Shown here: positions 1,397 to 19,086 of the stretch, piece after piece
How the letters are laid out: each line of letters begins with the position of its first letter
Position numbering within the stretch: the stretch's first letter is position 1
IMG/VR virus record: IMGVR_UViG_3300032050_000935
Location: 1 to 21,513 of that record
Strand: one strand, 5' to 3'
Length of the DNA stretch: 21,513 bases
Source: a virus
The notes under the pieces: generated by a model
Databases searched by the model: none
What the model was told of the DNA's origin: nothing
Seen by the model: only the letters and a program-made list of their open reading frames with translations
Position numbers and translations under genes: made by a program

Positions 1397-1397
1397 T

Positions 1398-2201: not shown

Positions 2202-2203
2202 TT

Positions 2204-3385: not shown

Positions 3386-3882
3386 TGGACAGAGAACAAG
3401 CAATAGAATTTATTAATAGCTGCCAATTTAAAGAGGCTAAAAGTTATTCGGAAACTTATCCACATTGGTACACTACAAGAACATTAGTCAATAACGATGC
3501 TGACTTTGAGGCTTTTTTAAAATTCTGCAGAGAAAATTCAATCCTTAAAAAATTTTATTCAAAGCAATATTTATATTTGGAGTTGGAGGGTTTTGAGTAT
3601 TGGGAAATGGGGAGACCAATAAAGTGTGTTGAAGTTTTAAACAAAGCTATCATAAACGACAATGCCTATTACAGATATCCTGCTCCATCAAAAGAGGCAG
3701 GAGATTTTTTGAAACGTAAATTAAATTTAAGGGACGAGTATCTGGAAAAGCTATTGAAACTGGAGGCACCAACCGAAATTAATTTGCAGGAGATTGCTTT
3801 CCTAATGAATACAGAAAGAAGAATACACGGTGGAGGAAAAAACATAATCGACCATTCAGAATTAGAAATCAAATACAAATAA
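3385..3882 (+). CDS. conserved phage protein with PHWY motif, function unknown
   Basis: The 165-residue product has an N-terminal block YPHWYTTRT (25-33), an LKFCREN helix and then GFEYWEMG (about 69-76) followed by VLNKA. This pattern (PHxYtxR... YWxMG... N/K-A) resembles a small conserved protein seen in varied phage genomes, sometimes beside or fused to methyltransferases; that link is from memory and not shown here. The C-terminal part (about 100-165) is charged and predicted helical, ending IHGGGKNIIDHSELEIKYK. No catalytic motif, membrane segment or signal peptide is visible. The start overlaps the ibrA-like stop by one base and the gene ends one base before the IbrB-like gene, so it is embedded in the IbrA/IbrB pair and probably works with them. 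Confidence 0.6.
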   Translation: MDREQAIEFINSCQFKEAKSYSETYPHWYTTRTLVNNDADFEAFLKFCRENSILKKFYSKQYLYLELEGFEYWEMGRPIKCVEVLNKAIINDNAYYRYPAPSKEAGDFLKRKLNLRDEYLEKLLKLEAPTEINLQEIAFLMNTERRIHGGGKNIIDHSELEIKYK

Positions 3883-3883
3883 A

Positions 3884-4384
3884 ATGAAACCACAACCATT
3901 AAATGAAATCAGTTGGATTGATAGAAATCTATTAAAGCCAAACAACTACAACCCGAATAAGGTTGCACCTCCAGAATTAAAGTTATTAAAAATCTCTATC
4001 TTAGAGGACGGATGGACGCAGCCTATTGTTATAAACCCAGACTTTACGATTGTAGATGGCTTTCACCGTTGGACGGTTTCGGGACACAAAGAAATTTTTG
4101 AGTTGACAGACGGCAAAGTACCGACTGTAATGGTTCATCCTAAAGATGCAGCCCAACAACAAATGGCTACAATACGTCACAACCGTGCAAGAGGAACACA
4201 CGGTGTTTTAGAAATGAGTAATATTGTTACGGATATGGTAAAGCAGGGATTAAGCGGTGACGAGATTATGAAACGATTAATGATGGAGAAAGAGGAAGTT
4301 GTACGATTATTGTTCCGTGCAGGAATACCAAAAAGTGATGTGTTTAACGACAAAGGTTTTTCAACCGCTTGGCAACCTAAATAA
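3884..4384 (+). CDS. ibrB: IbrB-like ParB/Srx-fold protein
   Basis: A 166-residue ParB-like protein. The NPN segment (23-25), QPIVI and the box DGFHRW (58-63) are ParB/Srx motifs. IRHNRARGTHG follows at about 104-114, then a helix-turn-helix-like stretch (about 120-140, GLSGDEIMKRLMMEKEEV), and the C-terminus reads FSTAWQPK. This architecture matches IbrB, the ParB-like partner encoded with IbrA in E. coli prophages. Its position in the same operon as the DUF3440 enzyme supports that assignment. The partner role may be DNA or nucleotide binding, or a phosphotransfer reaction; the sequence alone does not decide. It differs clearly from the ParB protein at 791, so the operon carries two ParB-fold proteins of different subfamilies. 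It is the last module gene before the packaging genes, 8 bases upstream. Confidence 0.75.
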   Translation: MKPQPLNEISWIDRNLLKPNNYNPNKVAPPELKLLKISILEDGWTQPIVINPDFTIVDGFHRWTVSGHKEIFELTDGKVPTVMVHPKDAAQQQMATIRHNRARGTHGVLEMSNIVTDMVKQGLSGDEIMKRLMMEKEEVVRLLFRAGIPKSDVFNDKGFSTAWQPK

Positions 4385-4392
4385 AAATACCA

Positions 4393-4704
4393 ATGGCTAA
4401 TAAAGATAATCTAAAGCATCTTGTTCCTTTCAAAAAGGGATTTGATCCACGAAGAAATATAAAGGGACAACCCCCGAAGATTCCTGCAATAGATACTTTA
4501 CTGGCAGAGGTATTGGGTGAGGAAAAGGACGGAGTTTCTGCAGCTAAGGCTATCCTAATGGCTTTACGTGCTAAGGCATCTAAAGGTGATGTTCGGGCTG
4601 CAGAGGCTTTACTTGATAGGGCTTATGGAAAATCTACTCAGATTGTTGACCATACAGTTGCTTTAAATTACGATGAATTTATTGAAAAAATTACCAATGC
4701 TTAA
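4393..4704 (+). CDS. DUF5681-like protein, candidate small terminase subunit
   Basis: This 103-residue protein has a basic, glycine-containing N-terminus (FKKGFDPRRNIKGQP, about residues 13-27) and a helical core ending AAEALLDRAYGK (about 75-86). Both are features of the DUF5681 family often encoded next to phage terminase genes. The RAAEALLDRAYGK helix is a recurrent motif in phage packaging-region proteins. Its place just upstream of the large terminase suggests a DNA-recognition (TerS) role, although canonical TerS proteins are usually longer and the helix-turn-helix is not clear. It overlaps the next ORF. Family recognition is moderate and the function is inferred from position. Confidence 0.6.
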   Translation: MANKDNLKHLVPFKKGFDPRRNIKGQPPKIPAIDTLLAEVLGEEKDGVSAAKAILMALRAKASKGDVRAAEALLDRAYGKSTQIVDHTVALNYDEFIEKITNA

Positions 4705-4954
4705 ATCAGATTTACCAATAGAACCTTATACAATAGCCGAGGCTTTAGTTTGTATAAATGCGGAATTGAAATCCAAAGGCAGGCATAAAATTGGCTCCAG
4801 TCACTTCAATAATTTGATTTACAATATTGTTAAAGTGGAACGGATAAAGGTTAAAAAGAAACCAGTATCAATCCACTACAACTCTATAGTTGATATTTAT
4901 AACCACATCAACACAAAACGCTATCCAAAGAATAGAAAAACTAGGTGCAAATAA
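4697..4954 (+). CDS. small protein of unknown function upstream of terL
   Basis: The product is 85 residues if translation starts at ATG 4697, which overlaps the preceding stop by 8 bases. An in-frame ATG at 4673 would add eight residues, and neither has a clear ribosome site. The sequence begins LKSDLPIEPYTIAEAL and contains a helical middle and a Lys/Arg-rich tail (TKRYPKNRKTRCK). The N-terminal pattern could be a DNA-binding helical domain, so it competes with the previous gene as the small terminase subunit. Its stop overlaps the GTG start of the large terminase by 10 bases, arguing for co-translation. No family was recognised. Confidence 0.55.
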   Translation: MLKSDLPIEPYTIAEALVCINAELKSKGRHKIGSSHFNNLIYNIVKVERIKVKKKPVSIHYNSIVDIYNHINTKRYPKNRKTRCK

Positions 4955-6081
4955 TCCCAATATATTTCAGACACTTTAAACAGAATGCCAAAGAAAGATT
5001 TGTAGGATTAGTTGGAAGTTCAAGGTCTGGCAAAACTTATTCGGGACTTCAATGGTTATTCTTTTTAGCTCAAATGGGCATCAAATTTGAATGTACTGTT
5101 GTTGGTCGTTCTATTCCTTTTTTACGTGACGGAGCCGTTAATTCCTTTCGGGAAATAGCAAACGGTTACACAATTATACGCTCACCCTTTAGCGTAAAAA
5201 TAAAAAATGCCTCTTTCCTATTTCGTTCCTTTGAAAATGAAAACGATGCTAAGGGAGCGGAAAGAGATTTCCTTTACCTAAACGAATGTAATGACTTGGA
5301 ATATAAAGTTGTTCAACAATTAATTATGAGAACAAGGATTCAAACGATTGTGGATTTTAACCCTACAAAACGATTTTGGATTGACGAATATACTTCTGGC
5401 AGCAACCTATTAAAAACAACCTGGAAAGACAATCCATATTTAGCAGAATCCCAAAAGGAAAACTTTGCAGCAATAAAACATAGAGCAGAATTACCAAATG
5501 CATCTGCTTACGACAAGTATCTTTATTCCGTGTTCTATTTGGGCGAGTATGGAGATATGCGAGGCAATGTTTTTGGCAGGCTATCAGAATGTACGGTTGC
5601 TGAATACGAAAGTTTAACCAAACATAGTCGCAAGCTTTACGGTTTGGATTTTGGTTTCAGTCAAGATCCTTGCGCATTAATTGAAATGTCAATGGTACTT
5701 GGAGTTATTTATATCAGATACCTGCTTTATCAAAACCAACTAAACGACTTCCAGTTATCCGAAATACTGAAAGAATATTGTGATGCCAGTAACCCAATAG
5801 TTTGTGACTTCGGAGGCGGAGGTGATGCTAGGATGTCAAACATATTTCAGTTAACTGGTCTGACTTTAGTCAAGGCCACAAAGGGACCAAACTCAATTAA
5901 AACTGGAGTAGAATTATTGAATACTTATCCTATTGTGGTTTGTGGCGAACACGCAATGAAAGAATTTAGCAGCTATGAATTTGTAGATGATTCATTTTCC
6001 GAAAAGGACAACCACGGTATTGATAGTGCTAGATATGCCATTGACTATGCAGTCCGTGCCAATTACTTTAATATTAGTTAA
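4945..6081 (+). CDS. terL: terminase large subunit
   Basis: The motor protein that packages phage DNA into the prohead. The ATPase domain has Walker A GSSRSGKT (24-31) and a Walker B-like FLYLNE (109-114), with E114 as the probable catalytic glutamate and Asn in place of the usual Asp, as in PBSX-like terminases. The C-terminal RNase H-like nuclease has acidic motifs in YGLDFGF (about 225), VCDFGGGGD (about 290) and HGIDSARYAIDYA (about 357). At 378 residues it is slightly short for the family but complete. The start is GTG at 4945, inside the preceding gene, since no later start retains the whole ATPase domain. In most siphophages the portal gene comes next; here tail genes follow. Confidence 0.92.
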   Translation: MQIIPIYFRHFKQNAKERFVGLVGSSRSGKTYSGLQWLFFLAQMGIKFECTVVGRSIPFLRDGAVNSFREIANGYTIIRSPFSVKIKNASFLFRSFENENDAKGAERDFLYLNECNDLEYKVVQQLIMRTRIQTIVDFNPTKRFWIDEYTSGSNLLKTTWKDNPYLAESQKENFAAIKHRAELPNASAYDKYLYSVFYLGEYGDMRGNVFGRLSECTVAEYESLTKHSRKLYGLDFGFSQDPCALIEMSMVLGVIYIRYLLYQNQLNDFQLSEILKEYCDASNPIVCDFGGGGDARMSNIFQLTGLTLVKATKGPNSIKTGVELLNTYPIVVCGEHAMKEFSSYEFVDDSFSEKDNHGIDSARYAIDYAVRANYFNIS

Positions 6082-6103
6082 CTATTTTATTTATTTTTAT
6101 ATC

Positions 6104-6607
6104 GTGACTGAAAAAGAGATAGTTAAGGACGAATTAACTCAAATGATTGGTAGGATTGCCAATAATTTGGATAGTACTGGAACGAGTGCAAGTGGTCGTA
6201 CTGCTAAATCTATGTTTGTTGAAGATACTGAATTTGGCGTTATTGTTTGGACTTCCAGAAGATATTTTAAGGGTGTTGAAATAGGCAGACCTGCAGGAGG
6301 TGTTCCAAAAGGCTTTAATCAGATTATCAAACAATGGATTTTGGATAAGGGTATTACAGTCACTCAGTTACCTTATAAACGAAAACCATCTGCTAACTGG
6401 CAACCCAAATATAGTGTTCCAGAACGGTCGCTAATTATGGCTGCAGGTGCTATTGCAAGTAACATTAAAAGCAAAGGAACTGGATTGCATCAAAGTGGAG
6501 GACGTTCCGATATTTACAGTCAAGAAATAGAAACTACCGTTGGCAATATTAAAAAACGCTTGGCATCGGAAGTGATTGCACAAATTAAATCAAACATTAG
6601 GAAGTAA
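6104..6607 (+). CDS. tail-completion / head-tail joining-like protein
   Basis: A 167-residue protein if started at GTG 6104, 22 bases after terL; an in-frame ATG at 5987 would overlap terL by 95 bases and add an unnatural hydrophobic leader, so it is rejected. Conserved-looking blocks are TGTSASGRTAKSM (about 21-33), YFKGVEIGRPAGGVPKGF (about 50-67), WQPKYS and GTGLHQSGGRSDIYSQEI (about 127-144). The pattern of a short alpha/beta core with G-T-x-L-x-x-S-G-G-R-x-D-I-Y fits small joining proteins of the HK97 gp10 type in Bacteroidota phages. It overlaps the tape measure start by one base, which supports a tail role. Assignment is by pattern and context. Confidence 0.5.
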   Translation: MTEKEIVKDELTQMIGRIANNLDSTGTSASGRTAKSMFVEDTEFGVIVWTSRRYFKGVEIGRPAGGVPKGFNQIIKQWILDKGITVTQLPYKRKPSANWQPKYSVPERSLIMAAGAIASNIKSKGTGLHQSGGRSDIYSQEIETTVGNIKKRLASEVIAQIKSNIRK

Positions 6608-9456
6608 TGGCACAAGAGAAAGAAGAAATATTAATCGAGATTGTAGTTTCAAATGAGGCTGCAGCCAAAACTATTTTTGAAAACCAACAAAGCATTGAGC
6701 GTTTAAAGCAAACGCAAATAGAATTGACAAAGGCTCGCAAAGAGGGAACTATTACCGAAGAAGAATACAGTAAAAAAAGTACTGCAGTAAAGGTTGCCAT
6801 TGATAGCCAGAAAGAATCCATACGTCAAAACGAAAAGGAATTAAGAAATAACATTAAAAGCCAAAAGGAAAACACGGATAGCTTGGCAGCAATGAGAGCG
6901 CAATTATCCAATAGTGTTAAAGAGTTTGATAATTTAAGTAAAGCTGAAAGGGAAAGCGCAAGAGGGCAAGAATTACAAAAGAGTATTGCAGATACCGTTG
7001 AACAATTAAACGAGGCAGAGCAGGCAACGGGACGCTTTCAGAGGCAAATAGGAAACTATCCCGAGGGAATGGGTAAGGCAGGGCAAGGAATAAATCAAGT
7101 TACTGGTTTTTTAGGAAAAATGTCCGACCAGGTTAGTGTTGTAAGTCCAAAATTAGGAGGTATGATTTCATCTTTCGGAGGTTTTGCAGCAAAGGCAAGC
7201 GGTGTTTCTGAAAGTGTTGCGGATATGAGTTCAAACATTTCGCAAAGTGGTGAGGCAATGGGTTCCATTGAGGGCTTTGCAGGAAAAGCATCTGGAAGTT
7301 TAGATAATTTAGCAACCACTTCTGGAACTGCAGCAAAGGCATCTACTGGAGCATTTAGTTCTATTGCCTCAGGTGCAAGGGCCTTAGGTACGGTATTTTT
7401 AACCCCTCCCATCATAATTATTGCAGCGGTTGTAGGTGCAATCGTTGCTGCTTTTGCATTATTGAAAAAAGGATTTAATCAAAATGATGAGGCAGCGGAT
7501 AAATTAGAAAATGCAATGAGTATTTTGCAACCTATCTTTCACGCTGTTGGTGAACTAGCATCTTTTTTAGCTAATGCCATAGGAACATTAGTTGAATTTA
7601 TGGCTGATGGAATTGCAACAATAGTTGATTTTACTGCAGGATTATTTGGTATTGAAACTGGAATGAGTGCTGCAGCCCAAGAGGCAAAAAATTTATTACA
7701 AGCTGAAAGGGATTTAGAGGATGCAGAAACTGAGTTTATAGTTACCGCTGCAGATAGAGCGTTAAAGAAATCAAAATTACTGGCAGATGTTGCTAATAAA
7801 GAAAAGTTTACTGCAGAACAAAGGATAGCTTTATTGAAAGATGCAAACGCATTGGATTTAAAAGATTTAGAAGACAAGAAAAAATTTGCAGATGAAAGCT
7901 TACGTATTATAGAGGCTAAGGCAAAAGCAGAAAATAAAGCAACACACGAAGTTGAATTAGAAATAGCAAACGCTAGAGCAAGACAATTAAATACTGAAAG
8001 GGAATACTTTGATGGATTAAAGGATCTTAATAAAAAATTAGCTGCAGCTGAAAATGAATTGGCAGCGGAACAAAAAGCTAATTATGAAAAGTGGAAACAG
8101 ATACACGATGAAAAGTTAAGTAAGGAAAAGGCTGCTATCAGACAACTGGAGGATTTAGTTATCCAACAAATAAAAGATGATTTTCAACGTCAGATACAAG
8201 CAGAAGAAACTAAAACTAAACGTGCAAATGAAGATTTACTAATAAGATTAAATACAGAAAAGAATTTAACTGCAAAGGCAAGGCAGGCAATTAGTGATGC
8301 TATTATTGAGAATAATAATATACTAAACGATAAGGTAAATGAATTGACTGAAAAATCTCTGGAGGAAAACATTAAAAAAGAGATTGACGCCAAGACAAAG
8401 GAAAACGAGGCAAAATTACAGTTAGCAGAAAAGGGAAGTCAAGAAGAATTAAATATTAAGATTGCTAAACTTACTCTGCAACGTGATGCTCAATTATCAA
8501 ATGATAATTTAACTAATGTAGAAAGATTAGCTATTGAGGATAAATATAATAAGGATTCACAAGCGTTAAATGATTCGTATTTAATATCAAGAGAACAAAG
8601 ATTAATGGAGTCTTTTGATAAAGAGTTTAAATTAAGAATATTAAATGCTGAAAATAATAATATAGCTTTAGAGGAACAAAAAGCTATTGAATTAGAAAGC
8701 GCAATTTTAGAGGCTGAGAATTTAAAAAACTTAGATGCTGAAACAAAGGCAGCATTATACCAGACACAATTAGATTACGAAATTGCAATAGCAGAAAGCC
8801 AAAAGAAAATTATAATTGCACAAGAAAATGTTACTGCAGCGCAACTAACATCTTTAGTTTCTTTTAACGCAGCTATGACTAGTATAAGCCAGTCAATCGG
8901 AACAATTATAAGCAATTTAGCAGAAGATAGTTATGAGGCCGCACAATTTCAAAGGGCTTTAGCAATATTTAATATCGGGATTGCATTATCTGAATCAATT
9001 GCAGGTGTTACAAAAATGGCAGCGACTAAATCAGTTACTGTTTTTGATATGTTAGCAACTATTTTAGCAGGAACGGCATCTGTTGCATCTAGTATTGCAG
9101 GAGCAAAAAAAGCGTTTAACGAAAGCCCTATGCCTAAAAAACCTGCATTTGCATTTGGGGGGTTAGTTAGCGGACCTGGCAGCGGAACAAGTGATTCGAT
9201 TGATGCTAAATTAAGCAATGGAGAAAGTGTTTTAAATGCAAATAGTACTGCAATGTTCTCGCCATTATTAAGTGCCTTAAACCAAGCAGGAGGCGGTGTA
9301 GGTTTCGGGCAACAACAAGTTAGTAATCAATTGCAGGGTGAAGAAATGTTAGCTAGAGCATTTGCAAAAGGAGCATCAATGATTCCTCCTAATGTATTAA
9401 CTTTGAAAGAATTTCACGCTGCAAACGACAGATACGTTTCATTAAAAGAATTATAA
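6607..9456 (+). CDS. tail tape measure protein
   Basis: The 949-residue protein sets tail length and probably passes through the membrane during DNA ejection. Residues 1-150 and about 355-740 are charged, heptad-rich coiled coil (repeated K/E/A/L blocks). A strongly hydrophobic segment lies at about 260-290 (TPPIIIIAAVVGAIVAAFAL) and another glycine/alanine-rich hydrophobic region at about 740-845. The C-terminus carries FAFGGLVSGPGSGTSDSID and LSNGESVLNA (about 848-880), a signature common in phage tape measure proteins. From the usual relation of about 0.15 nm per residue, a tail near 140 nm would be expected. The start overlaps the previous stop, and the gene ends two bases before the tail-tip genes. 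Confidence 0.93.
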   Translation: MAQEKEEILIEIVVSNEAAAKTIFENQQSIERLKQTQIELTKARKEGTITEEEYSKKSTAVKVAIDSQKESIRQNEKELRNNIKSQKENTDSLAAMRAQLSNSVKEFDNLSKAERESARGQELQKSIADTVEQLNEAEQATGRFQRQIGNYPEGMGKAGQGINQVTGFLGKMSDQVSVVSPKLGGMISSFGGFAAKASGVSESVADMSSNISQSGEAMGSIEGFAGKASGSLDNLATTSGTAAKASTGAFSSIASGARALGTVFLTPPIIIIAAVVGAIVAAFALLKKGFNQNDEAADKLENAMSILQPIFHAVGELASFLANAIGTLVEFMADGIATIVDFTAGLFGIETGMSAAAQEAKNLLQAERDLEDAETEFIVTAADRALKKSKLLADVANKEKFTAEQRIALLKDANALDLKDLEDKKKFADESLRIIEAKAKAENKATHEVELEIANARARQLNTEREYFDGLKDLNKKLAAAENELAAEQKANYEKWKQIHDEKLSKEKAAIRQLEDLVIQQIKDDFQRQIQAEETKTKRANEDLLIRLNTEKNLTAKARQAISDAIIENNNILNDKVNELTEKSLEENIKKEIDAKTKENEAKLQLAEKGSQEELNIKIAKLTLQRDAQLSNDNLTNVERLAIEDKYNKDSQALNDSYLISREQRLMESFDKEFKLRILNAENNNIALEEQKAIELESAILEAENLKNLDAETKAALYQTQLDYEIAIAESQKKIIIAQENVTAAQLTSLVSFNAAMTSISQSIGTIISNLAEDSYEAAQFQRALAIFNIGIALSESIAGVTKMAATKSVTVFDMLATILAGTASVASSIAGAKKAFNESPMPKKPAFAFGGLVSGPGSGTSDSIDAKLSNGESVLNANSTAMFSPLLSALNQAGGGVGFGQQQVSNQLQGEEMLARAFAKGASMIPPNVLTLKEFHAANDRYVSLKEL

Positions 9457-9457
9457 G

Positions 9458-10870
9458 ATGAGAATTTTTACAGACCCAAGCACAATGTATATTGAATATC
9501 CAGACAATTTAGTTTTTTCTGGAGATCTTAATAGAATTTCAATTACAAAAAATACAACTGCAACACACGTCGAGATATCCTATTACCTTGGCGGTTATGA
9601 GTATAAAGAGAATTTATATTTTTTTGCAGATAGTGTTATATTTTCACTTTCTGAAACATTAAATTTAATTTTCGATAGAACGGAGAATTCAGACTTCGGA
9701 ACATCACAATCATTTTCTTTTACTATTAAGCTTTACAATAACACATCACTAATTGATACAGAAAGTTTTTCAATTAATACTGTTATATTAGGTAAGCGCA
9801 GAGTATTTGATTTATTAGGTAATGTCCCAAACATTAATACTTTTGATTTTGATAGCAGTTTAGGTTTAATGGATTTTACCTATTACTTTGAATACCTTAG
9901 TAATGTTTATGTAGTTTTGGATTCTGGAGAAGAATTTATTGATAATTACCAAGGTATTACAACTATTAGTTTAGGAGGATTTACAGAGCATATTAATTAT
10001 ATTATTTGGAGGGTTACAAACTATATGTTAAATGCTAATTTTCAATATTTAGGCGGAAATAATTTTTGGACGAACATAGATGATTTTCCTGCTTGCTCTA
10101 GTATTTTTGAAATCACTACGTCTAATAAAATGCAATTTACGATACCAGATGCAAGTTGTGGAACACAAATGGAGGTTAAATATATTGGACGTAATTTTGT
10201 AGAGGGACAACAATATACTGTATTAGTAAATATTGATGCTATTAACAACCCAAGTGGTAATACTATGTTCTTAAAGGTTGCCATTGGAGGAAACGAAAGT
10301 ACTGCTATTAATACAACTGGCATATCCTCTGTTTCTGTTACTGCAGGACCAGGAGGATTGCTAAAATTAATTGGTTATATGGATGCAGATACTAGCGGTT
10401 ACGGATCACACGGATTTAGTATTGTAAGCATAGTTGTTTCAGATACAATAGTTCATAGGATAGATTTAGATTATAACTGTAGTGGTGTTGGTGAAAAATT
10501 AAAAATAAGATTTAAAAATCGTTTTGGATTATGGAGATATTATTCAGTAACTAAAAAAACAGAAAACATCACATCAACTAAAGGGATTAGCTTATTATTT
10601 TCAGATAACAATTATACTGAATTAAATAATTTATTTACTGAGCAAGGAAAAGAGTATAATCAGTCAATACAAGTATTTAAAGAAAGTGTAAGCAAAGAGG
10701 TTGCTAATGATTTTAGTGATATTATTTATACAGATCACATACATTTGTTTGATAATATAAATGAGAATTGGCTGCCAGTAAAGGTTAATACAAATGCTTT
10801 TAATATTATTGAAAAAGAAAATTTATTTGATATATCTTTAAATTTATTACTACAATCAAACAATGAGTAA
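9458..10870 (+). CDS. tail-tip protein with carbohydrate-binding-like insert
   Basis: A 470-residue, beta-rich protein directly after the tape measure, the usual place of distal tail or tail-tip proteins. Residues 1-185 form a beta-rich N-terminal part. Residues about 190-328 look like an inserted CBM-type jelly roll: NANFQYLGGNNFWT, FTIPDASCGTQMEVKYIG, EGQQYTVLVNID and a Gly/Ser-rich second half. The tail resumes with RIDLDYNCSGVGEKLKIRF, KNRFGLWRYYS and WLPVKVNTN, a pattern I associate with tail-tip proteins of Bacteroidota phages. The insert suggests glycan binding on the host surface. No enzymatic motif is visible. It overlaps the next gene by 8 bases. Confidence 0.6.
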   Translation: MRIFTDPSTMYIEYPDNLVFSGDLNRISITKNTTATHVEISYYLGGYEYKENLYFFADSVIFSLSETLNLIFDRTENSDFGTSQSFSFTIKLYNNTSLIDTESFSINTVILGKRRVFDLLGNVPNINTFDFDSSLGLMDFTYYFEYLSNVYVVLDSGEEFIDNYQGITTISLGGFTEHINYIIWRVTNYMLNANFQYLGGNNFWTNIDDFPACSSIFEITTSNKMQFTIPDASCGTQMEVKYIGRNFVEGQQYTVLVNIDAINNPSGNTMFLKVAIGGNESTAINTTGISSVSVTAGPGGLLKLIGYMDADTSGYGSHGFSIVSIVVSDTIVHRIDLDYNCSGVGEKLKIRFKNRFGLWRYYSVTKKTENITSTKGISLLFSDNNYTELNNLFTEQGKEYNQSIQVFKESVSKEVANDFSDIIYTDHIHLFDNINENWLPVKVNTNAFNIIEKENLFDISLNLLLQSNNE

Positions 10871-12740
10871 ACTTTTATTTATAATAGACGGACAGAAAGT
10901 AGACATTGATAAAAGCATTGATTTTACTAGAATTTATAGGGGATTAGAAACAACAGATACAAAGAAAAATAATTATTCTTTGACTGTAAAATTTCCTTTT
11001 ACATATAGAAATGATTTGATATTTAAACGTACAAATTCATTATCCTATAAATCTGATTTCCCTTACGAAACACATACTTGCGATGTTACTTCTAGTTCTG
11101 GAGTAATATTGATTAGTAAAGCTAATGTTAAATTATTGTCGACGACTGACTCTTACGAGTGCGCATTAACTTGGGATGATTTCGATTTCGTTGGTTCTAT
11201 TATAAACAATCCTACAAAATTAGGAGTTTTTTTAAAAGACTTTCCGTTTGTTGAGTGGAATTACAACGACGTTGCGACTTACGACGAGGACAGTTATACA
11301 ACGTTAAAAGCTAATACTTACGGATATTGTCGTTATACTCATTTTTACGGAAGCGACGAAAACCAACACTTTAACACTTATGCTCACCCTTTAGTAAATT
11401 TTAATTATTTACTCGGGTTAATTTTCGCAGAATACGGATTTAATTTAGACGTCCCAACAGTTAAAAACGATTTCTTACAAAAATTAATTATACGACCAAA
11501 TAAAGAATTAGACATTTGCACAAATAATATTTTTGAGGCTCAGGTGCATTATACAACGGCTTATACGTCGTATATAAACGCTTTACAATTAGATTATAGG
11601 AGGAGCGCAGATTTAAGCCCTCTATCTCCTACATTTGGCAGGAATAGTTATTATTTCAAATCTTTTATGAGTAATTATGAGGGTGACGATGCGACGAATA
11701 TCGACGACGGTTACGGAATGTTACCGCAGACAAAAAGATTTAAGGCTTATGCAAATACTTTCAACAATCAATTAGTTGTTACTGATTATGTAGTCACTAC
11801 TGGCAGCACTCCAGATTTAGTAAGGTATCGTAACGGGGTTTTCACATTAATTCACTCGATAACTGGAAACGGAACATATACTTTTGACGCTCAGGATGGG
11901 GATTGGTTTTATTTTAAAATAATTGTTGCAGGCGATCAGTTTTTTAATTGCACAATAACAACTGCAATAGACGAAACGCTGACAACCCCTAATGAATTAC
12001 ATTTTCCGAGTTTATATCATATACCTACAAATATAGATTTGACCGTTGGGGAATTTGTCCGTGAGGCTTTAGACTTAACGTGCAGTCAATTAATTTACGA
12101 CGTAAATAGTGATACTTATTATTTCAAAGATATACTAAACGAAAATTCTACTGCTTACGACATTACTGGAAAAATAACTTCTATAAAAGAGATAACATAC
12201 GATACAAAATATGTTTATTCGAAATTAGCGCAGGAAAACTTTTTTAACTATTTAACTAAATTACCAATAGATGCTGACTACTCAGTACTCGCAAGTGATA
12301 CAAGACTAATCCCAGAAAAAACATTTATCGACTCTAAATTTTCAACGTCGAGCACTCAAATAGGCGGTTATTACGACGGCTTTTGCATAGCACAAGAGCA
12401 TAATTATGTTGCTGGCGATGAGTTTGTTTTATTTGTCGAGCAACCTTTACACTTACTTTGGAATGACTCAGTAAATAGCAAAATATTTTTCTCGAGTGAT
12501 TTATTTATGGGAAATATATATTCTTTATTTTGGGAAAACTATTTTATCGATTTGCTTTCGTTGGTGCTTTCGGGGACTGTTAGGCTGTTAAAAGTTAATA
12601 CCGAAATATCAGATATAGAATTTAAAAGAATTAATTTAAAGGGCTCTGTTTATATAAAAACTTACGGCAAATACTACGGCATAATCGAAGTAGCTAAAAA
12701 CGGTGACTTTGCAGAATTCTTTTTATTAGAATTATACTAA
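10863..12740 (+). CDS. large tail-tip/baseplate-like protein
   Basis: This 625-residue protein begins FIIDGQKVDIDKSIDF, is strongly beta-rich throughout and has many aromatic residues (Y, F, W). It has no recognisable enzymatic motif, coiled coil or membrane segment. Following the tape measure and the previous tail-tip gene, it is most simply a tail-tip, hub or baseplate component. It ends where the reverse-strand glycosyltransferase genes begin; the two 3' ends overlap by 4 bases. Its DNA differs from the neighbours: from about 11100 to 12700 CG dinucleotides and codons ending in -CG/-GAC are clearly more frequent than in the tape measure gene, which suggests acquisition from a different phage. 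Precise role is uncertain. Confidence 0.6.
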   Translation: MSKLLFIIDGQKVDIDKSIDFTRIYRGLETTDTKKNNYSLTVKFPFTYRNDLIFKRTNSLSYKSDFPYETHTCDVTSSSGVILISKANVKLLSTTDSYECALTWDDFDFVGSIINNPTKLGVFLKDFPFVEWNYNDVATYDEDSYTTLKANTYGYCRYTHFYGSDENQHFNTYAHPLVNFNYLLGLIFAEYGFNLDVPTVKNDFLQKLIIRPNKELDICTNNIFEAQVHYTTAYTSYINALQLDYRRSADLSPLSPTFGRNSYYFKSFMSNYEGDDATNIDDGYGMLPQTKRFKAYANTFNNQLVVTDYVVTTGSTPDLVRYRNGVFTLIHSITGNGTYTFDAQDGDWFYFKIIVAGDQFFNCTITTAIDETLTTPNELHFPSLYHIPTNIDLTVGEFVREALDLTCSQLIYDVNSDTYYFKDILNENSTAYDITGKITSIKEITYDTKYVYSKLAQENFFNYLTKLPIDADYSVLASDTRLIPEKTFIDSKFSTSSTQIGGYYDGFCIAQEHNYVAGDEFVLFVEQPLHLLWNDSVNSKIFFSSDLFMGNIYSLFWENYFIDLLSLVLSGTVRLLKVNTEISDIEFKRINLKGSVYIKTYGKYYGIIEVAKNGDFAEFFLLELY

Positions 12741-13321
12741 AAGAAATACTTTTTGTAAAGTGATAAATTTGTCTGGTTGTATTTTGTAACACACTTGGCG
12801 TTATCACTCCAACCGTCCAACTGATAGGCAAAATGCTTTTTAGAAATATAAACGTTTAAGTTTTTACCAATATAGTGGTCTATTGGCTCCGTTCCGTTAT
12901 AATCAATTATAGTTTGATAAGCCCTTTCGTTTACGATATAAAAATGGCAGCCTGCAAACTTTTGTATTTTGTTCCAGTATTTATCATCTGTATCAATTAC
13001 TTTTCCAGAATAGCAGCCAAAAATCAATACATCAAAATCACTCGGTAAATTTTCAAGTAATTCATCAAAGTAAGGCTTAGAATTTTCTCGCAAACAGATA
13101 TCATCTTCAATAATTAGAATGTTTTTTTGTTCCGTTTCATTTGCATACCTAATGCAGTTCTTATGGCTTTCTCTAATTGCCAATGTCGTGTTTTCTAAAT
13201 TGCTTACGGCATTAGAAACTACAGTTTTAAATTCACCAAAAAATTTAGTCAGTTCCTTTCTGGAATGCTCTAAACGTTCTGTTCGTTTAGGAAGATTTAT
13301 TAAGATTGAATTTATTTGCAT
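12737..13321 (-). CDS. glycosyltransferase family 25-like
   Basis: A 194-residue protein with the GT25 layout: an N-terminal ILINLPKRTERLEHS (6-20), then NILIIEDDICL (67-77) carrying the EDD motif for metal and nucleotide-sugar binding, and a central SDFDVLIFGCYSG and FAGCHFYIVNERAY. GT25 enzymes transfer galactose or related sugars to lipooligosaccharide or protein. The first 35 bases overlap the end of the preceding GT2 gene on the same strand, so it is the last gene of a three-gene coupled operon. No membrane segment is visible, so it should act in the cytoplasm. The acceptor is unknown: host envelope glycan, phage virion protein or modified DNA are all possible. Confidence 0.75.
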   Translation of the reverse strand: MQINSILINLPKRTERLEHSRKELTKFFGEFKTVVSNAVSNLENTTLAIRESHKNCIRYANETEQKNILIIEDDICLRENSKPYFDELLENLPSDFDVLIFGCYSGKVIDTDDKYWNKIQKFAGCHFYIVNERAYQTIIDYNGTEPIDHYIGKNLNVYISKKHFAYQLDGWSDNAKCVTKYNQTNLSLYKKYFF

Positions 13322-13991
13322 TGAATTTTTTATTAAATACTTTGGCTTGTGCCATAGTTAGTTGGTAATTAGTTTCAGAATCCACTGTTTTTAGCGTATT
13401 GCTGCCATTGTCAACGTGATTTACTATTGAGGTAGGTATAAGTAGGTGCTCCACATTAATAGCCTTTAACTGTTCACAATATGCATCATCGGAACACCAA
13501 AAAGTGCAACAATCGTCAAGGCCTCCGAGTTTATCCCAAAGCTTTCTAGTAAAAACTATTGCCCAACCTGATAACTCTTTTGCTATTCCATAACCTACAA
13601 CTGGCTCAGTAGTGGTAAACCATTGCCTTTGACTTTGTGATGTATGGCTGATAGGTGAGCAGGAAAATAGATCTTGTCCTTTGTAATGTTTTAGGATTTC
13701 TTCAAACCAGTTTTCATCAAAAATAACATCGTTATTAAACACTCCGATTAATTCGCTGCAGTTAAATAAAATTCCATAATTAGCAAATTGATTATAATTA
13801 AATGGAGCGATTATACTAATAGTTTTCACTCCTAAAAATTGGTTATAATCAATATCTGACACACTTTCAATTACAAGTATATTAAAGTTTTCTGAGCCTT
13901 TAGATGCCAGTAAGCTATTCAAACAATTAGCAGTTAGTTGGTAGTGCTTATCAGTTTTAGCATAGGATAAAATTACAATATCTATTTTCAT
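13287..13991 (-). CDS. glycosyltransferase family 2-like
   Basis: A 234-residue GT-A fold protein: DIVILSYAKTD (4-14), PFNYNQFANYGI (63-74), GVFNNDVIF (83-91, NND in the DXD position), a mid region with LSGWAIVFTRKLW and WCSDDAYCEQL (catalytic-base region, about 170-180), and NHVDNGSNT. The order of blocks is typical of rhamnosyl- and similar GT2 transferases. The start lies in a 4-base ATGA overlap with the upstream GT2 gene and the end overlaps the GT25 gene. Soluble, no membrane segment. The donor sugar and acceptor cannot be read from the sequence. The three enzymes probably build one short glycan in sequence. Confidence 0.75.
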   Translation of the reverse strand: MKIDIVILSYAKTDKHYQLTANCLNSLLASKGSENFNILVIESVSDIDYNQFLGVKTISIIAPFNYNQFANYGILFNCSELIGVFNNDVIFDENWFEEILKHYKGQDLFSCSPISHTSQSQRQWFTTTEPVVGYGIAKELSGWAIVFTRKLWDKLGGLDDCCTFWCSDDAYCEQLKAINVEHLLIPTSIVNHVDNGSNTLKTVDSETNYQLTMAQAKVFNKKFNANKFNLNKSS

Positions 13992-14578
13992 CTTCTTTTG
14001 TTTTTTAAGTGTTGTTGGGTTTCTGTAGTGGATTGATGATAATTGTAATAGTACAATGTTTCACTTAAATTTAATTCCGTTTTGATTAATGGAGCCAATC
14101 TTTTACTGTAATCAGAATCCTCACCGTAAAGAATATCTTTGTACTTAACCTGGAGTGCCAGTTCTCGCTTAACACACATTATATGGTTTGGCAGCCTAAA
14201 ATATCCGTCTGCAGTATTGAAATCAAATGAGTTTGCGATACTATAATGGCAGGGTTTGTACGGACCATTATTTAGTGAAACGTCAACAATAAAATTAATC
14301 ACATCAACATTATTTTCGTCAATGGCCTTAACCAGTTGCGTAACATAATTTAGGCTTATTTTATCATCATCATCAATAAAAGTTATATAGTCACCTGCAG
14401 CTGCATCCACTAAATTATTCCTTTTTGTACCTAGCATCCGCTTTTTGTTGTCGTACAAATACAGTACCTCAACATCTTCTATCCCCTCTACTTGTCGATT
14501 TAATTCGTTTAATAATTCAATGGCTTTACCGTTGACAATTCTGGAGTGAACTCCGCAAACTAATACTGATAATTTCAT
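13988..14578 (-). CDS. glycosyltransferase family 2-like
   Basis: The first gene of the reverse-strand operon encodes 196 residues with GT2 motifs: LSVLVCGVHSR (3-13), GTKRNNLVDAAAGDYITFID (50-69) leading into the acidic DDDD at 69-72, which would bind the metal and nucleotide sugar, and YGEDSDYSKRL (about 151-161) with the expected acidic catalytic region. It is shorter than most GT2 enzymes (usually 230-300), with a compact acceptor domain, but shows no break. It overlaps the next GT2 gene by 4 bases. The 69-base gap upstream is shared divergently with the tail-tube gene. Likely cytoplasmic; acceptor unknown. Confidence 0.75.
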   Translation of the reverse strand: MKLSVLVCGVHSRIVNGKAIELLNELNRQVEGIEDVEVLYLYDNKKRMLGTKRNNLVDAAAGDYITFIDDDDKISLNYVTQLVKAIDENNVDVINFIVDVSLNNGPYKPCHYSIANSFDFNTADGYFRLPNHIMCVKRELALQVKYKDILYGEDSDYSKRLAPLIKTELNLSETLYYYNYHQSTTETQQHLKNKRR

Positions 14579-14582
14579 AATC

Positions 14583-14590
14583 CAAAAATA
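14583..14590 (-). promoter_or_regulatory. weak -7-like box for the glycosyltransferase operon
   Basis: On the reverse strand TATTTTTG fits TAnnTTTG, but it lies only 4 bases from the first start codon, which would give a nearly leaderless transcript, and no -33 box was found. AT-rich DNA makes such matches common. Confidence 0.2.
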
Positions 14591-14591
14591 G

Positions 14592-14624
14592 TAAATAATA
14601 GTATAAATTAGTATTTATTTTTAC
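14592..14624 (+). promoter_or_regulatory. 33-bp repeat, candidate phage late promoter, copy 1
   Basis: This block matches 17748-17780 at 32 of 33 positions, with the mismatch at position 8. It holds tandem decamers AGTATAAATT and AGTATTTATT; a related AGTAAATAAT immediately precedes them in this copy (14590-14599), making three in phase. It ends 23 bases before the tail-tube start codon. It lacks a clear host TAnnTTTG box (TATTTTTA is nearest), so a phage-specific activator or sigma factor is more likely than plain host recognition. Confidence 0.6.
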
Positions 14625-14647
14625 ATCAAACTTAAAAAAAAAAGAAA

Positions 14648-15265
14648 ATGGCAATTACTTTATGTGGCTCATTAGTGAGCGAAAATATTTCACCTAGTTG
14701 TGATAATCCGATTTTAACTGGCATTGAATCGGTTGGTATGATATTAAACCGTGACGATGTTGATTTTGCAAACGTTGTTAAAAACGGAACTCGCAAAAAT
14801 GTTATTGAAACATTAGCAGTAAAGGTTGGCAAAAAAGCCTATTCTATTTATATCCCAAGCAACACGCCATTTAACGGTACAAAAATTTCGATGGCAACTG
14901 GAGTAAATTCGAACAAATTTAATTCAGAGGTTGCTTTTACCGTTTTAAATAATGATCCAGACGTAACGGCTGACATTATCGATGGTTTAGCAAACGGAAC
15001 GTATGTTGTAGTTATCCAAAATAAATACAACAACACGGACAAAGCAAGTACTCCAAGTGATTCTGTTTTCCAAGTATTTGGATTTGAGAAAGGATTACGT
15101 GCAACTGCTATCGAGAACGATAAATATTCTGCAGATACTGACGGTGGTTGGTCTGTAGTATTAACGGAGGAATTGCACCCTAAAGCAGGACACTTCTTGT
15201 ACGATACTGATTACGCTACAACTTTAGCAAAATTTGAGGCGTTAACAAACGTAGCAACTTCTTAG
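14648..15265 (+). CDS. probable major tail (tube) protein
   Basis: The 205-residue protein has an ITLCGSLVSENISPSCDNPI start, a beta-rich body and the stretch VFQVFGFEKGLRAT (about 140-153), then GGWSVVLTEELHP and FLYDTDYATTLAKFEAL at the C-terminus. The size and the Ig/tube-like beta pattern match major tail proteins of Bacteroidota siphophages. Support comes from context: it has an A-rich leader typical of strongly expressed genes in this phylum and the same upstream element as the capsid gene, as expected for the two most abundant virion proteins. Its stop overlaps the GTG of the next gene. It is separated from the tape measure by the tail-tip genes and the glycosyltransferase island, which is unusual. 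No sequence match was available, so this is not certain. Confidence 0.6.
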   Translation: MAITLCGSLVSENISPSCDNPILTGIESVGMILNRDDVDFANVVKNGTRKNVIETLAVKVGKKAYSIYIPSNTPFNGTKISMATGVNSNKFNSEVAFTVLNNDPDVTADIIDGLANGTYVVVIQNKYNNTDKASTPSDSVFQVFGFEKGLRATAIENDKYSADTDGGWSVVLTEELHPKAGHFLYDTDYATTLAKFEALTNVATS

Positions 15266-15615
15266 TGAACAACCAAGACATATTTGATAATCTGAAAGCC
15301 CTGCAATTAAGGGCTTTTAGTTTATCTAAGCAGGACAAGAAAGATATTGAAAATTTATCATTAGATTTGAAAATTGATTTTGTAAAGCGAAAAAATTGTC
15401 AGAATTGTTATGCCGACCAAATAATTAGATTACTGATTGAGGTTAAAAAAAGCCTTATTGTAGTTGAAAATTTAAACTGCCAGTATATGGTTATCGGTGA
15501 CAAAGACGTTACAATAAGAGGCAAAAGAATAAACAATAACACTATTACAGATGAGTTAGCGGAATGGCTTATTAGAGTTTATCCGTATCACTCGAAATAC
15601 ATTAAAAGAAAATGA
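15265..15615 (+). CDS. CxxC-containing phage protein, function unknown
   Basis: This 116-residue protein starts at GTG 15265, which overlaps the previous stop by one base. It has a KNCQNCYADQIIRLL block (about residues 43-57) with two cysteines, and C-terminal DELAEWLIRVYPYHSKYI. The cysteine pair could bind metal or form a disulfide, but two cysteines alone do not prove a zinc site. It is small, helical and follows the tail-tube gene, where many siphophages have tail assembly chaperones; no slippery frameshift site typical of those was identified. No family is recognised. Its stop overlaps the start of the next small gene. Confidence 0.55.
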   Translation: MNNQDIFDNLKALQLRAFSLSKQDKKDIENLSLDLKIDFVKRKNCQNCYADQIIRLLIEVKKSLIVVENLNCQYMVIGDKDVTIRGKRINNNTITDELAEWLIRVYPYHSKYIKRK

Positions 15616-15725
15616 GTTTTATTTTTGGATATGCAACGGGGATAGCTACAGTAATTGTAGCTTTAGTTATTTTAGTGGTAATCGGTAAAGCAAAACAAAG
15701 TTATGACAATTCTAAGCATAAGTGA
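15612..15725 (+). CDS. small single-pass membrane protein (37 aa)
   Basis: An ATG at 15612 overlaps the previous stop in ATGA and opens 37 codons. Residues about 5-25 are a continuous hydrophobic span (FGYATGIATVIVALVILVVI), followed by a charged tail GKAKQSYDNSKHK. The start is coupled and the end overlaps the next gene by 23 bases. The layout resembles small phage membrane peptides, with an outward N-terminus and a positive C-terminal side, but no family is recognised and a holin or assembly role cannot be claimed. It is short enough to be missed by gene callers. Confidence 0.55.
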   Translation: MSFIFGYATGIATVIVALVILVVIGKAKQSYDNSKHK

Positions 15726-16245
15726 TTTAAAAAATTTAATGGACGTTTCTTTTCACAAAAGGGACGAAACAATAACTGCAGCCATCGAGGCCGTTGAAAT
15801 GTCGTATGTAAAAAAATATTTTAAAGAGGAAGTTTATACTTTCATTTTAAAAAATACTATTGCATCACCAAGCAACACGTTTGCGGATTTAATTGTTGAC
15901 GGTGGTTTTTATGAGGACGAGGACGGTAAAGAATATTACATTAATGGATTAAATAAAACGATTGCACTATTAGCTTATTGTGATTTATTAATTAATCAAA
16001 CTGTAGTAACCAGGTTTGGAGCAGTAAATAAAAATGATAGCTATTCATTTAAACCAGATTTTTCCAGTATATTAGAGCAGGTTAGTAGATACAGAAAAAC
16101 TGCTTTATTATACCTGCAGGATATTGATACTATGCTTAGAGTTTACAACATCACTCCAAGCGACACGGATATTACAGATTTATTAACTGCTTACCGTTTA
16201 GAATGTGTAGGTAAAATTGAGGGAATTTTGAACGAATGGATATAG
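15703..16245 (+). CDS. head-tail connector-like protein
   Basis: The 180-residue, largely helical protein begins ILSISDLKNLMDVSFHKRDE and has a helical core with NKTIALLAYCDLLINQ (about 83-98), RFGAVNKND and SSILEQVSRYRKTALLYLQDID (about 120-141). This architecture is typical of head-tail connector/head-completion proteins (gp6-like; DUF6712-type in Bacteroidota phages). It lies immediately upstream of the portal, with an overlap of 10 bases. In other siphophages connectors normally lie downstream of the capsid gene, so the position is unusual. Function is inferred from pattern and neighbours. Confidence 0.5.
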   Translation: MTILSISDLKNLMDVSFHKRDETITAAIEAVEMSYVKKYFKEEVYTFILKNTIASPSNTFADLIVDGGFYEDEDGKEYYINGLNKTIALLAYCDLLINQTVVTRFGAVNKNDSYSFKPDFSSILEQVSRYRKTALLYLQDIDTMLRVYNITPSDTDITDLLTAYRLECVGKIEGILNEWI

Positions 16246-17213
16246 GTTTCGGAAAATATAAGATAAGTATTAGAAATACCAATACTGCAATAGTATCTGG
16301 AGATTCTAAGGCATTAATAGTTGGAGGCAATATGTTTGGCAATCTAAACTTATTGACTAATTACAAATTTGCAGATGTAATTTTATACCAATTAATCCAG
16401 AAGATTATTGATGCAATGAGTGGTATTGTTTGGACGATGCAAGGGACTGAATTAACATTGCTGCAGGCTAATCTAAAAATCATTTTTGAAAAGAATTTTG
16501 GAGACTTTTACAAGGCCTTATACTTTAATGGTATGGCAGTATTCGTTGTAAATTTTGATACACAACACGTCAAGCTATTAAAGGAAAACAAGTATAAAAT
16601 AGAAACAGACGGCTCAATAACTTTAGATAAAGAATTTGAGGGTTACCGTGTTTTTGTTACCTATTCGGAAACCTATAAAATGTTTGGCAAAACAGATTAC
16701 GAAACTTGTAAGGATATGTATTTGCATATTGATAATTTGATGAATGCAATAAATTGCACTACTGAAAATTTAGGTGCAATGGGTATTTTAAGTCCCGAAA
16801 GTGTATCTGGAGTGATGACGAATTTAGGGGATAAGGAACGAGAAAAGCTACAAACTGAATGGCGAGAAAAGTATGGTTTAAAGGTTGGCAAGTGGTCAAT
16901 CCTAATGACACAAACCCCAACTAAATTCCAACAAATTAATTTACCGATCAAAGATTTAGAACTAACACAAAAATTAGAGAATGCAGTTAAGATTCTGGCA
17001 GGCTATCACAAAGTACCTTATGAATTGGTTGCACTATCGGGACAAAGCACCTATGCAAATAGAAAAGAGGCAATGAATGAATTAATCGATTTAACCTGCA
17101 AAGCTTATGCGAATAAATTATTTGATATTGCCAGTCAGATTTTCTTTACAAAACCTATTAAAGTAAATTACATATTTGAAAAAATAATCACAAACAATGG
17201 AACAACTATTTAA
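16236..17213 (+). CDS. portal protein
   Basis: A 325-residue protein with portal features: an N-terminal region leading to SGIVWTMQG, a central KALYFNGMAVFVV and, near the C-terminus, KILAGYHKVPYEL followed by SGQSTYANRKEAMN (about 268-281), a signature of HK97/SPP1-like portals. It forms the dodecameric ring through which DNA enters the head and is joined to the tail. It is short compared with about 400-500 residues in most portals, mainly at the ends. The ATG overlaps the connector gene by 10 bases and the stop overlaps the protease start by 17 bases. The following protease and capsid genes confirm a head module. Confidence 0.8.
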   Translation: MDIGFGKYKISIRNTNTAIVSGDSKALIVGGNMFGNLNLLTNYKFADVILYQLIQKIIDAMSGIVWTMQGTELTLLQANLKIIFEKNFGDFYKALYFNGMAVFVVNFDTQHVKLLKENKYKIETDGSITLDKEFEGYRVFVTYSETYKMFGKTDYETCKDMYLHIDNLMNAINCTTENLGAMGILSPESVSGVMTNLGDKEREKLQTEWREKYGLKVGKWSILMTQTPTKFQQINLPIKDLELTQKLENAVKILAGYHKVPYELVALSGQSTYANRKEAMNELIDLTCKAYANKLFDIASQIFFTKPIKVNYIFEKIITNNGTTI

Positions 17214-17754
17214 AATAAACAACGCAACCACTTACAAATTTGATAAAGTAGGTGAAGATGCAACAACTTTGAAATATATCATCAAAGGTGATGTGTCGCA
17301 TTATGGAGTTAGAAATGAGAATTACGAAATAGACAACAAAGGTTGTTTTTCTAAGCATTTAAAAAAGGTGAAAGAAAATAATTCTGCTATTCCATTGGTA
17401 TTAAACCACAACGATTCGGATGCTGAAACTATTGGTAAATTTGTCGAGTTTGAGGACGGAGATACTTACCTATGGGGTTCTGCAGAATTGGTAAAAACTC
17501 CTTATATAATTAATGAGGTTGTTCCAAAGATTGAGGCAGGAATTTATCCGTGCTTTAGTACTTACGGTTGGGCAACACAAGGCAGTTGGAATAATGAGAA
17601 AGAGGCTTTTATTGTGGACGAGGCGGTTTTAATGAATGTATCTCTGGTTTCGCAAGGCGCTGACTTAAGAGCAAAAGCAACTTTGCAGCAACTTAAAAAC
17701 AAATTTGAGGTTAAAGAAACCACAAAAAAAACTTTTATTTTTAATTTTAAATAA
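17197..17754 (+). CDS. HK97-type prohead maturation protease
   Basis: The 185-residue protein matches the U35/HK97 prohead protease: LKYIIKGDVSHYGVRN near the start, LVLNHND with putative catalytic H71, IGKF, and GIYPCFSTYG with putative nucleophile S121. The C-terminus is Lys-rich, with NFEVKETTKKTFIFNFK-like sequence. It would cleave the capsid protein delta domain during head maturation. It lies between portal and capsid genes, as expected. The stop lies inside the first bases of the 33-bp element upstream of the capsid gene, so that element is intergenic only in part. Confidence 0.85.
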   Translation: MEQLFKINNATTYKFDKVGEDATTLKYIIKGDVSHYGVRNENYEIDNKGCFSKHLKKVKENNSAIPLVLNHNDSDAETIGKFVEFEDGDTYLWGSAELVKTPYIINEVVPKIEAGIYPCFSTYGWATQGSWNNEKEAFIVDEAVLMNVSLVSQGADLRAKATLQQLKNKFEVKETTKKTFIFNFK

Positions 17755-17780
17755 AAGTATAAATTAGTATTTATTTTTAC
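17748..17780 (+). promoter_or_regulatory. 33-bp repeat, candidate phage late promoter, copy 2
   Basis: Nearly identical (32/33) to the block ahead of the tail-tube gene; it ends 28 bases before the capsid start codon. It contains the decamers AGTATAAATT and AGTATTTATT in tandem. The third, upstream decamer of copy 1 is only partly matched here. Outside the block the two leaders diverge, so the identity is not just shared leader DNA. Confidence 0.65.
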
Positions 17781-17808
17781 GACAATTAAAAACATAAAAA
17801 CAACAATA

Positions 17809-19032
17809 ATGAAAAAAAATACAAAACTTGTTGCACTTTTTAAAGAATTAAAAAACTCTTTAAGTGCTGAAACCAAAACAGAAGTTATGGCAGCATTTGA
17901 GGCAGCTATTGCAGAGGCAGAATCAGCAGAGGCTGAGGTTACTAAAGATGATTTAATCACATTAGTAGAATCTAAACTTGCAGGATTAGCAACTGTAGAA
18001 CAAATGGCTGAAATGCAAAATATGATTAACAACAAATTCACTATGAAAAACCAAACTGAATATTTAAAAACTAAAAAATCTTTAACGGATTTTTACAACG
18101 TAATTAAAAACTCGAGTCGTGATACTTACAAAGAGAATTGGGCTAAGGTTTGTAAAACAGAAATCAAAAACGACATCGACCCAGACGGCGTTTTATTACC
18201 TGCAGCGATCACAACTGCAATTATTGATAACATCAATAAGGCAGGAACATTATTTTCTTTGTTAAACAAAACTGGTTTAAAATCTATCAAGGTTCCAGTA
18301 AACACTTTAGCAGAAGATGCAACAACTGGTCGTGCAGGTCGCCATACAAAAGGAACTACAAAGGACGCACAAGTTTGGGATTTAGCACCAAAAACAATTT
18401 TAGCGCAAGCAATTTTCAAATTGTTGCCAGTTGATTACGAAACTTTACGCCAGGTTGAAGATGAGGCTGCTTTAGTTCGTTACATCGTTGCTGAGTTAAC
18501 AAACTTTTGGACTAAAGAAGTTGAAATGGCAATTTTAGTTGGGGACGGACGTTCGACTTCTGATTCTCGTCACATCACTTCTTTTGAAACTATTGCGGTT
18601 TCAGCATCAACGGATTACATTACAGTTGTGGATAACACGGCATCCCCTGCAGTTCCTACAATGGAATTAGTACGTGAGGCAGTAGACTCTATCGAGTCTG
18701 AGGGACGTTTAGTATTAGTAATGTCAAAACAAAATAAGACTTTATTAGCCAAGCATATTTACGCAACTGGAGGTACAACTCGTTACGCAAGTGATGCTGA
18801 GTTAGCAGGTCAATTAGGTGTTGATGAAATTATTATTAACAAACACGTAAACGCAGCGAATGGCGCTTTAGCTATTGTGTTGGACGTTGATGCTTACAAT
18901 GTTGTAGGTGATACTACTCCAGAACAAATCAATCAATACGACATCTATAAAAACCAAAATGTTTTCGAATTAGTTGGTTTAGCAGGAGGTGGTTTAGTAA
19001 GATTGAAATCTGCAGCGGTTGTGAAACCATAA
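17809..19032 (+). CDS. major capsid protein, HK97 fold
   Basis: A 407-residue protein. Residues 1-85 are Lys/Glu/Ala-rich helix (KNTKLVALFKELKNSLSAE..., with EAEVTKDDLITLVESKL), typical of the cleaved scaffolding delta domain. The core has DPDGVLLPAAITTAI, KVPVNTLAEDATTGRAGRHT, the P-domain/spine-like region with DYETLRQVEDEAALVRYIV, AILVGDGRS (about 240-248) and the C-terminal YDIYKNQNVFELVGLAGGGLVRLKSAA. This is the HK97-fold capsid. The maturation cleavage should fall near residues 85-105, but the exact site is not visible. It lies between the repeat element and a strong hairpin terminator and therefore can be transcribed as a single gene. Confidence 0.92.
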   Translation: MKKNTKLVALFKELKNSLSAETKTEVMAAFEAAIAEAESAEAEVTKDDLITLVESKLAGLATVEQMAEMQNMINNKFTMKNQTEYLKTKKSLTDFYNVIKNSSRDTYKENWAKVCKTEIKNDIDPDGVLLPAAITTAIIDNINKAGTLFSLLNKTGLKSIKVPVNTLAEDATTGRAGRHTKGTTKDAQVWDLAPKTILAQAIFKLLPVDYETLRQVEDEAALVRYIVAELTNFWTKEVEMAILVGDGRSTSDSRHITSFETIAVSASTDYITVVDNTASPAVPTMELVREAVDSIESEGRLVLVMSKQNKTLLAKHIYATGGTTRYASDAELAGQLGVDEIIINKHVNAANGALAIVLDVDAYNVVGDTTPEQINQYDIYKNQNVFELVGLAGGGLVRLKSAAVVKP

Positions 19033-19057
19033 AAATTAATTACAAATTTTTACCTAG

Positions 19058-19086
19058 AAAGGGTGGGTTAACGCTCACCCTTTTTT
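19058..19086 (+). terminator. rho-independent terminator after the capsid gene
   Basis: AAAGGGTGGG (19058-19067) pairs with CTCACCCTTT (19074-19083) across a 6-nt loop TTAACG, with one G-U pair, and continues into a T-run to 19086. It follows the capsid stop by 25 bases and lies just before the next start codon at 19093. Confidence 0.85.

Follow-up and report, generated by a model that had tools for sequence, protein, structure and literature searches.

Two copies of a 33-bp element, one before the gene for a tail-tube-fold protein and one before the major capsid gene of a 21.5-kb virus record, appear to be promoters, presumably late, that would express these two genes as separate short units; a phage factor acting at them is the less certain part of this reading, to which we give a probability of about 0.6. 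The window, by which we mean the whole stretch of 21,513 nucleotides that was analysed, carries a tailed-phage structural gene set with terminase, tape measure and three minus-strand glycosyltransferase genes, after which the plus strand encodes a 205-aa protein, small proteins, portal, protease and capsid. The AF2 model of the 205-aa protein (pLDDT 78) gave Foldseek matches mostly to tail-tube and neck folds, none of them singly confident; that to the SPP1 tail tube 6yeg had a probability of 0.94 and an E value of 0.02. Upstream of the terminase genes, at 791–4384, two ParB-like proteins flank a PAPS-reductase-like gene. Comparison with L010 and L011 indicates a module exchange at 6104–14578: between terL and the tail-tube gene these relatives have lysis-like genes, and the window has the tape measure and glycosyltransferases instead. 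The elements and the genes that they precede are:

14592–14624, plus strand: element copy 1, putative late promoter before the tail-tube-fold gene; 32 of 33 positions identical to copy 2, with orthologous elements at the same place in the diverged relatives G003 and G004
14648–15265, plus strand: tail-tube-fold protein, 205 aa (phrog_21217)
17748–17780, plus strand: element copy 2, putative late promoter before the major capsid gene; the protease stop codon (17752–17754) falls within its left end
17809–19032, plus strand: major capsid protein, 407 aa (phrog_3270/phrog_7080 and PF06673)

The repeat is real and far above chance. The sequence-only reading had described a 32/33 match, tandem decamers with a third decamer in copy 1 (14590–14599), distances of 23–28 bases from element end to start codon and the absence of further copies in the window, and all of this was borne out: the gaps to the ATG codons are 23 and 28 nt, and the 20-mer AGTATAAATTAGTATTTATT, searched with up to 3 mismatches, occurs only twice (0.04 expected). 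The longest exact direct repeat in the window is 25 bp, and 50 dinucleotide shuffles give at most 20; the next best matches to the element in the window reach 23/33, the same as in shuffles. The tail-tube gene and GT1, a glycosyltransferase gene that diverges from it, are 69 bp apart, and copy 1 lies between them.

The 205-aa protein has a homologue in a Bacteroides phage, the terminase has homologues in many Bacteroidota phages, among others, and no obvious Shine-Dalgarno sites precede the genes, whose leaders are A-rich, from which we infer a Bacteroidota host, probably a relative of Flavobacterium. Promoters of Flavobacterium have a TAHHTTTG box at -12 to -5 and AT-rich blocks centred at -18 and -28 (PMC6847099); their leaders are short and their -33 box is weak (PMC6847099, PMC9723704). 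The elements were originally thought to lack a clear host box. This is probably wrong, since TATTTTTA in each copy fits the Bacteroidota -7 consensus at 7 of 8 positions and, with the start placed at the end of the box plus 5 (PMC6847099, PMC9723704), predicts that transcription begins 20 nt upstream of the one start codon and 25 nt upstream of the other:

14616–14623, plus strand: -7 box TATTTTTA of copy 1, 7/8 to TAHHTTTG; predicted start 14628
14628–14647, plus strand: predicted A-rich leader of the tail-tube-fold gene, 20 nt, from the -7 box; unstructured, weak folding
17772–17779, plus strand: -7 box TATTTTTA of copy 2, 7/8 to TAHHTTTG; predicted start 17784
17784–17808, plus strand: predicted A-rich leader of the capsid gene, 25 nt, from the -7 box; weak folding

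Over six copies from the window and its relatives the boxes, with starts 4–5 nt after them, predict leaders of 20–32 nt that are A-rich, as is usual in Flavobacterium; the median in F. psychrophilum is 24 nt (PMC9723704), and the predicted lengths are those expected of a Bacteroidota primary-sigma promoter. The tail-tube copy of G004, TATTTTTG, matches TAHHTTTG at 8/8 and the other copies at 7/8; the consensus is that of the Bacteroidota, the presumed host group, and in AT-rich sequence weak matches are common. The elements resemble promoters of the Bacteroidota primary sigma factor (sigma-A / sigma-ABfr; TTTG / TAnnTTTG) in three ways: a putative -7 box (TAHTTTTR) is as far from the start codon as expected, the sequence upstream is AT-rich, and the leader is A-rich with no Shine-Dalgarno site. 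They differ from them at -5, where most copies have A and not the near-invariant G, and at -33, where TTTG is absent and AAATAAA is found instead; the missing TTTG is not decisive, because the -33 box is weak genome-wide in F. johnsoniae (PMC6847099).

The relatives found in IMG/VR divide the element into three blocks. G002 and G005 are the same phage (~100%), G001 is 93–95% identical over most of its length, and the diverged relatives are G003, a fragment (major capsid protein 83%, tail-tube protein 78% identical), and G004 (66% and 69%). The element precedes both genes in all relatives, except that G005 ends before its capsid gene, and in G003 and G004 the ungapped layout TAAATAAA-N14-TTTATTTTTAC stands before the same two genes with the same spacing, so that the element is present in related phages where the sequence-only reading had asked that it be sought. 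Both elements are unchanged in G001 (0/66), compared with about 3–7% change in nearby genes. The blocks upstream of the -7 box are, in the window:

14592–14599, plus strand: upstream block TAAATAAT of copy 1, about -36 to -29; 92% identity within and between genomes
14600–14613, plus strand: genome-specific middle block AGTATAAATTAGTA of copy 1; 88% identity within genomes, 39% between
17748–17755, plus strand: upstream block TAAATAAA of copy 2; 92% identity within and between genomes
17756–17769, plus strand: genome-specific middle block AGTATAAATTAGTA of copy 2; 88% identity within genomes, 39% between

The outer blocks are equally alike within and between genomes (92/92% and 88/88%, about 90%), and the upstream block is kept also where it is non-coding, in all three tail-tube copies. 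The middle 14 bp are 88% identical within genomes vs 39% between them (Fisher p 1e-7, with sites treated as independent); the two copies match at 14/14, 12/14 and 11/14 positions within the three genotypes and at 4 to 9/14 between genotypes, and the between-genome identity is near the 36% expected from composition. Since the middle blocks of one genome resemble each other and those of different genomes match at chance level, the copies of one genome have changed together since the genomes parted, a conclusion that rests on three diverged genotypes and thus on few events. Neither the conserved TAAATAAA block nor a 14-bp block common to the copies of one genome is a feature of Bacteroidota primary-sigma promoters.

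The decamers fared less well than the element as a whole. Their helical phasing had been proposed as a functional unit, but the 10-bp repetition is private to the genotype of the window (8/10 in that register, vs 3–4/10 in the relatives' elements), and the window decamers fall at -28 and -18, positions that are AT-rich in Flavobacterium promoters generally. Helical phasing is therefore unsupported, because the relatives lack the repeat and F. johnsoniae promoters in general are AT-rich around -18 and -28 (PMC6847099). A T4-like late box (TATAAATA), prompted by TATAAAT in the window, is absent from the relatives' elements and was discarded.

Downstream of each gene lies a hairpin that would end a short transcript:

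15292–15320, plus strand: terminator-like hairpin 3' of the tail-tube gene, in the 5' end of the following ORF; four genotypes have a hairpin here
19056–19085, plus strand: intrinsic terminator 3' of the capsid gene, -17.3 kcal/mol, z -5.0; present in four genotypes

The case for these hairpins rests on their stability and their presence in relatives and not on the generic terminator scan, since the scan as a whole was at chance (8 found, 7.0 expected). Together, the conserved position, spacing and architecture in relatives, the host-type -7 box, the A-rich leaders and the hairpins make it very probable that the two 33-bp elements are promoters. Of the earlier proposal of a phage late promoter, a promoter before two abundant structural genes is thus supported, and "late" is drawn from the genes served.

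Two other roles for the element were considered. It might be an RNA-level attenuator or processing site in read-through transcripts, as an AAATAAA...TTTATTT inverted repeat with a U-rich end is found in most copies; however, this weak hairpin is no more stable than those of shuffled sequences (z -0.48 and 0.12), the genes behind copy 1, which lies between divergent genes, are on the minus strand, and within-genome conservation of the middle block would be left unexplained, so that we regard this as very improbable. Least probable of all is that the element marks a boundary at which recombination of phage modules is favoured: gene content upstream of the tail-tube gene is indeed swapped right at copy 1 among relatives (lysis genes or glycosyltransferases), but the capsid copy lies inside an unshuffled portal-protease-capsid block, and the -7 box spacing and the leaders would require a separate explanation.

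Additional sites of this kind are present in the relatives. Downstream of terL, G003 has a third copy (28/33; shuffle maximum 24) that carries the G003 middle block, and G004 has a related site before GT1 (26/33, 0 in 100 shuffles) with 12/14 of the middle block of its tail-tube copy. A score of 26/33 is not proof by itself, because a second 26/33 match in G004, which lies within the tape-measure gene in antisense orientation (L107, 5850 minus), is probably due to chance. Two sites in the window have related boxes:

6068–6100, plus strand: weak related site after terL, element status uncertain; 23/33 to the window's element, box TATTTTTA at 6092–6099
14583–14590, minus strand: divergent host-type box TATTTTTG, 4 nt before the GT1 ATG (14578)

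The box of the post-terL site lies 4 nt before the GTG at 6104, and the site is part of the second-best upstream pair of the genome (24/33 vs a shuffle maximum of 22–23); it has the same position as sites in G003 and G004 but is without the upstream and middle blocks. We note that TAHHTTTR boxes stand 4 nt (once 6) before the start codons of the post-terL gene, GT1 and terS (window 6092–6104 and 14590–14578; L106 9269–9283; L108 5871 and 7913; L107 12286), and these predict leaderless mRNAs, which make up only 5.5% in F. psychrophilum (PMC9723704). Other upstream repeats were also seen: two small G004 genes (L107 12970 and 13349, minus strand) have a near-identical leader of ~48 bp (GAGATAATTTTAGAAACCAAAAATAACAACTAACGCCAACTAAAATG), G001 early genes (L103 10244 and 12695) have a common leader AATATAAACCCTAAAAACAAAAA, a second upstream repeat unrelated to the late element, and the Flavobacterium phage FPSV-D22 (L115) has its own at 22159/31742 and 24730/31742, one of which combines AAATAA with a TATNTTTG box (27/33) and is possibly another promoter class.

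The element was not found outside one clade among the loci searched. A search of IMG/VR for TAAATAAA-N14-TTTATTTTTAC (105 stretches) gave, among the 80 loci listed, only one, that of G003, in which the pattern stands before a gene and is matched by a second copy. Four other flavophages have no common element before capsid and tail genes, and none was seen at distant tail-tube homologues (up to 56% identical, L019–L093), in which the tail-tube gene is mostly close behind another gene, apparently capsid, as in BS-TP3. Profile searches with the major capsid protein and portal found no relatives among genome contigs and no additional clade member among viral contigs.

The main rival to a phage factor is that the elements are plain strong host primary-sigma promoters that need none, the likeness of the middle blocks of one genome being the result of recent duplication or gene conversion. 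A host-type -7 box with AT-rich -18 and -28 blocks suffices in Flavobacterium (PMC6847099), the phages encode an Erf-type annealing protein (G001 has an ERF recombinase gene), and no sigma factor or regulator was found by fold search or by pfam/PHROG scans of the relatives' early genes that took in part of their small ORFs, the G001 early genes having one winged-helix protein, at L103 13086–13391, in the pfam/PHROG scan. Conversion, however, would have to stop at the element edges, where identity ends, and in G003 it would have to span the upstream and middle blocks but leave out the -7 blocks, which differ; the third site also carries the genome-specific block, and the same event would be required in each lineage. 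We consider this explanation unlikely. The chance that a phage factor reads the middle block we put at about even. That the middle-block copies have changed in concert makes the putative activator site of the earlier reading plausible. One speculative candidate for such a regulator, by position and predicted helices, is:

4697–4954, plus strand: 85-aa basic protein between terS and terL, conserved in G003 and G004 (54/49%)

Its AF2 model is helix-helix-wing-helix (pLDDT 72), and fold and family searches gave no family match and no confident fold match.

The promoter reading would then work as follows. The host RNA polymerase, through its primary sigma factor, would read the -7 box and start 20–32 nt before the ATG and, less certainly, a phage-encoded DNA-binding factor would read the genome-specific middle block and turn the sites on together; shifts in the specificity of this factor would cause the middle-block copies to shift in step. 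Promoter and terminator-like hairpin would make the tail-tube and capsid genes separate short transcription units, and the two most needed proteins could thus be produced in larger amounts than the other products of the operon, which may be the purpose. This arrangement is like that of the T4 middle promoters, which have a MotA box at -30 and a host -10 (PMC2988021), in that a host downstream box is kept and the upstream box is replaced by phage-type sequence common to the phage's promoters (here the middle block, 88% within and 39% between genomes). It differs from them in host phylum and box and in serving structural, not middle genes, and the family scans made found no MotA or AsiA homologue. 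A literature search on late promoters and late-gene control of Bacteroidota phages found no mapping paper. The promoter of Whitaker et al. 2017, cited in PMC10582963, is reportedly a strong one from a Bacteroides phage that serves as an expression tool, and the elements are like it, as far as its description goes, in being phage promoters for a Bacteroidota host.

We tentatively suggest a small late regulon in which the host primary sigma factor is joined by a phage factor whose specificity changes together with that of its sites, so that the promoters of sibling phages are mutually orthogonal, although this is somewhat doubtful. The three sibling genotypes form a natural experiment in which the polymerase-contact blocks were conserved and the middle block was swapped. 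If a phage factor does read the middle block, it should be findable from few genes, and these phages would supply ready-made, mutually exclusive promoter-activator pairs for Flavobacterium.
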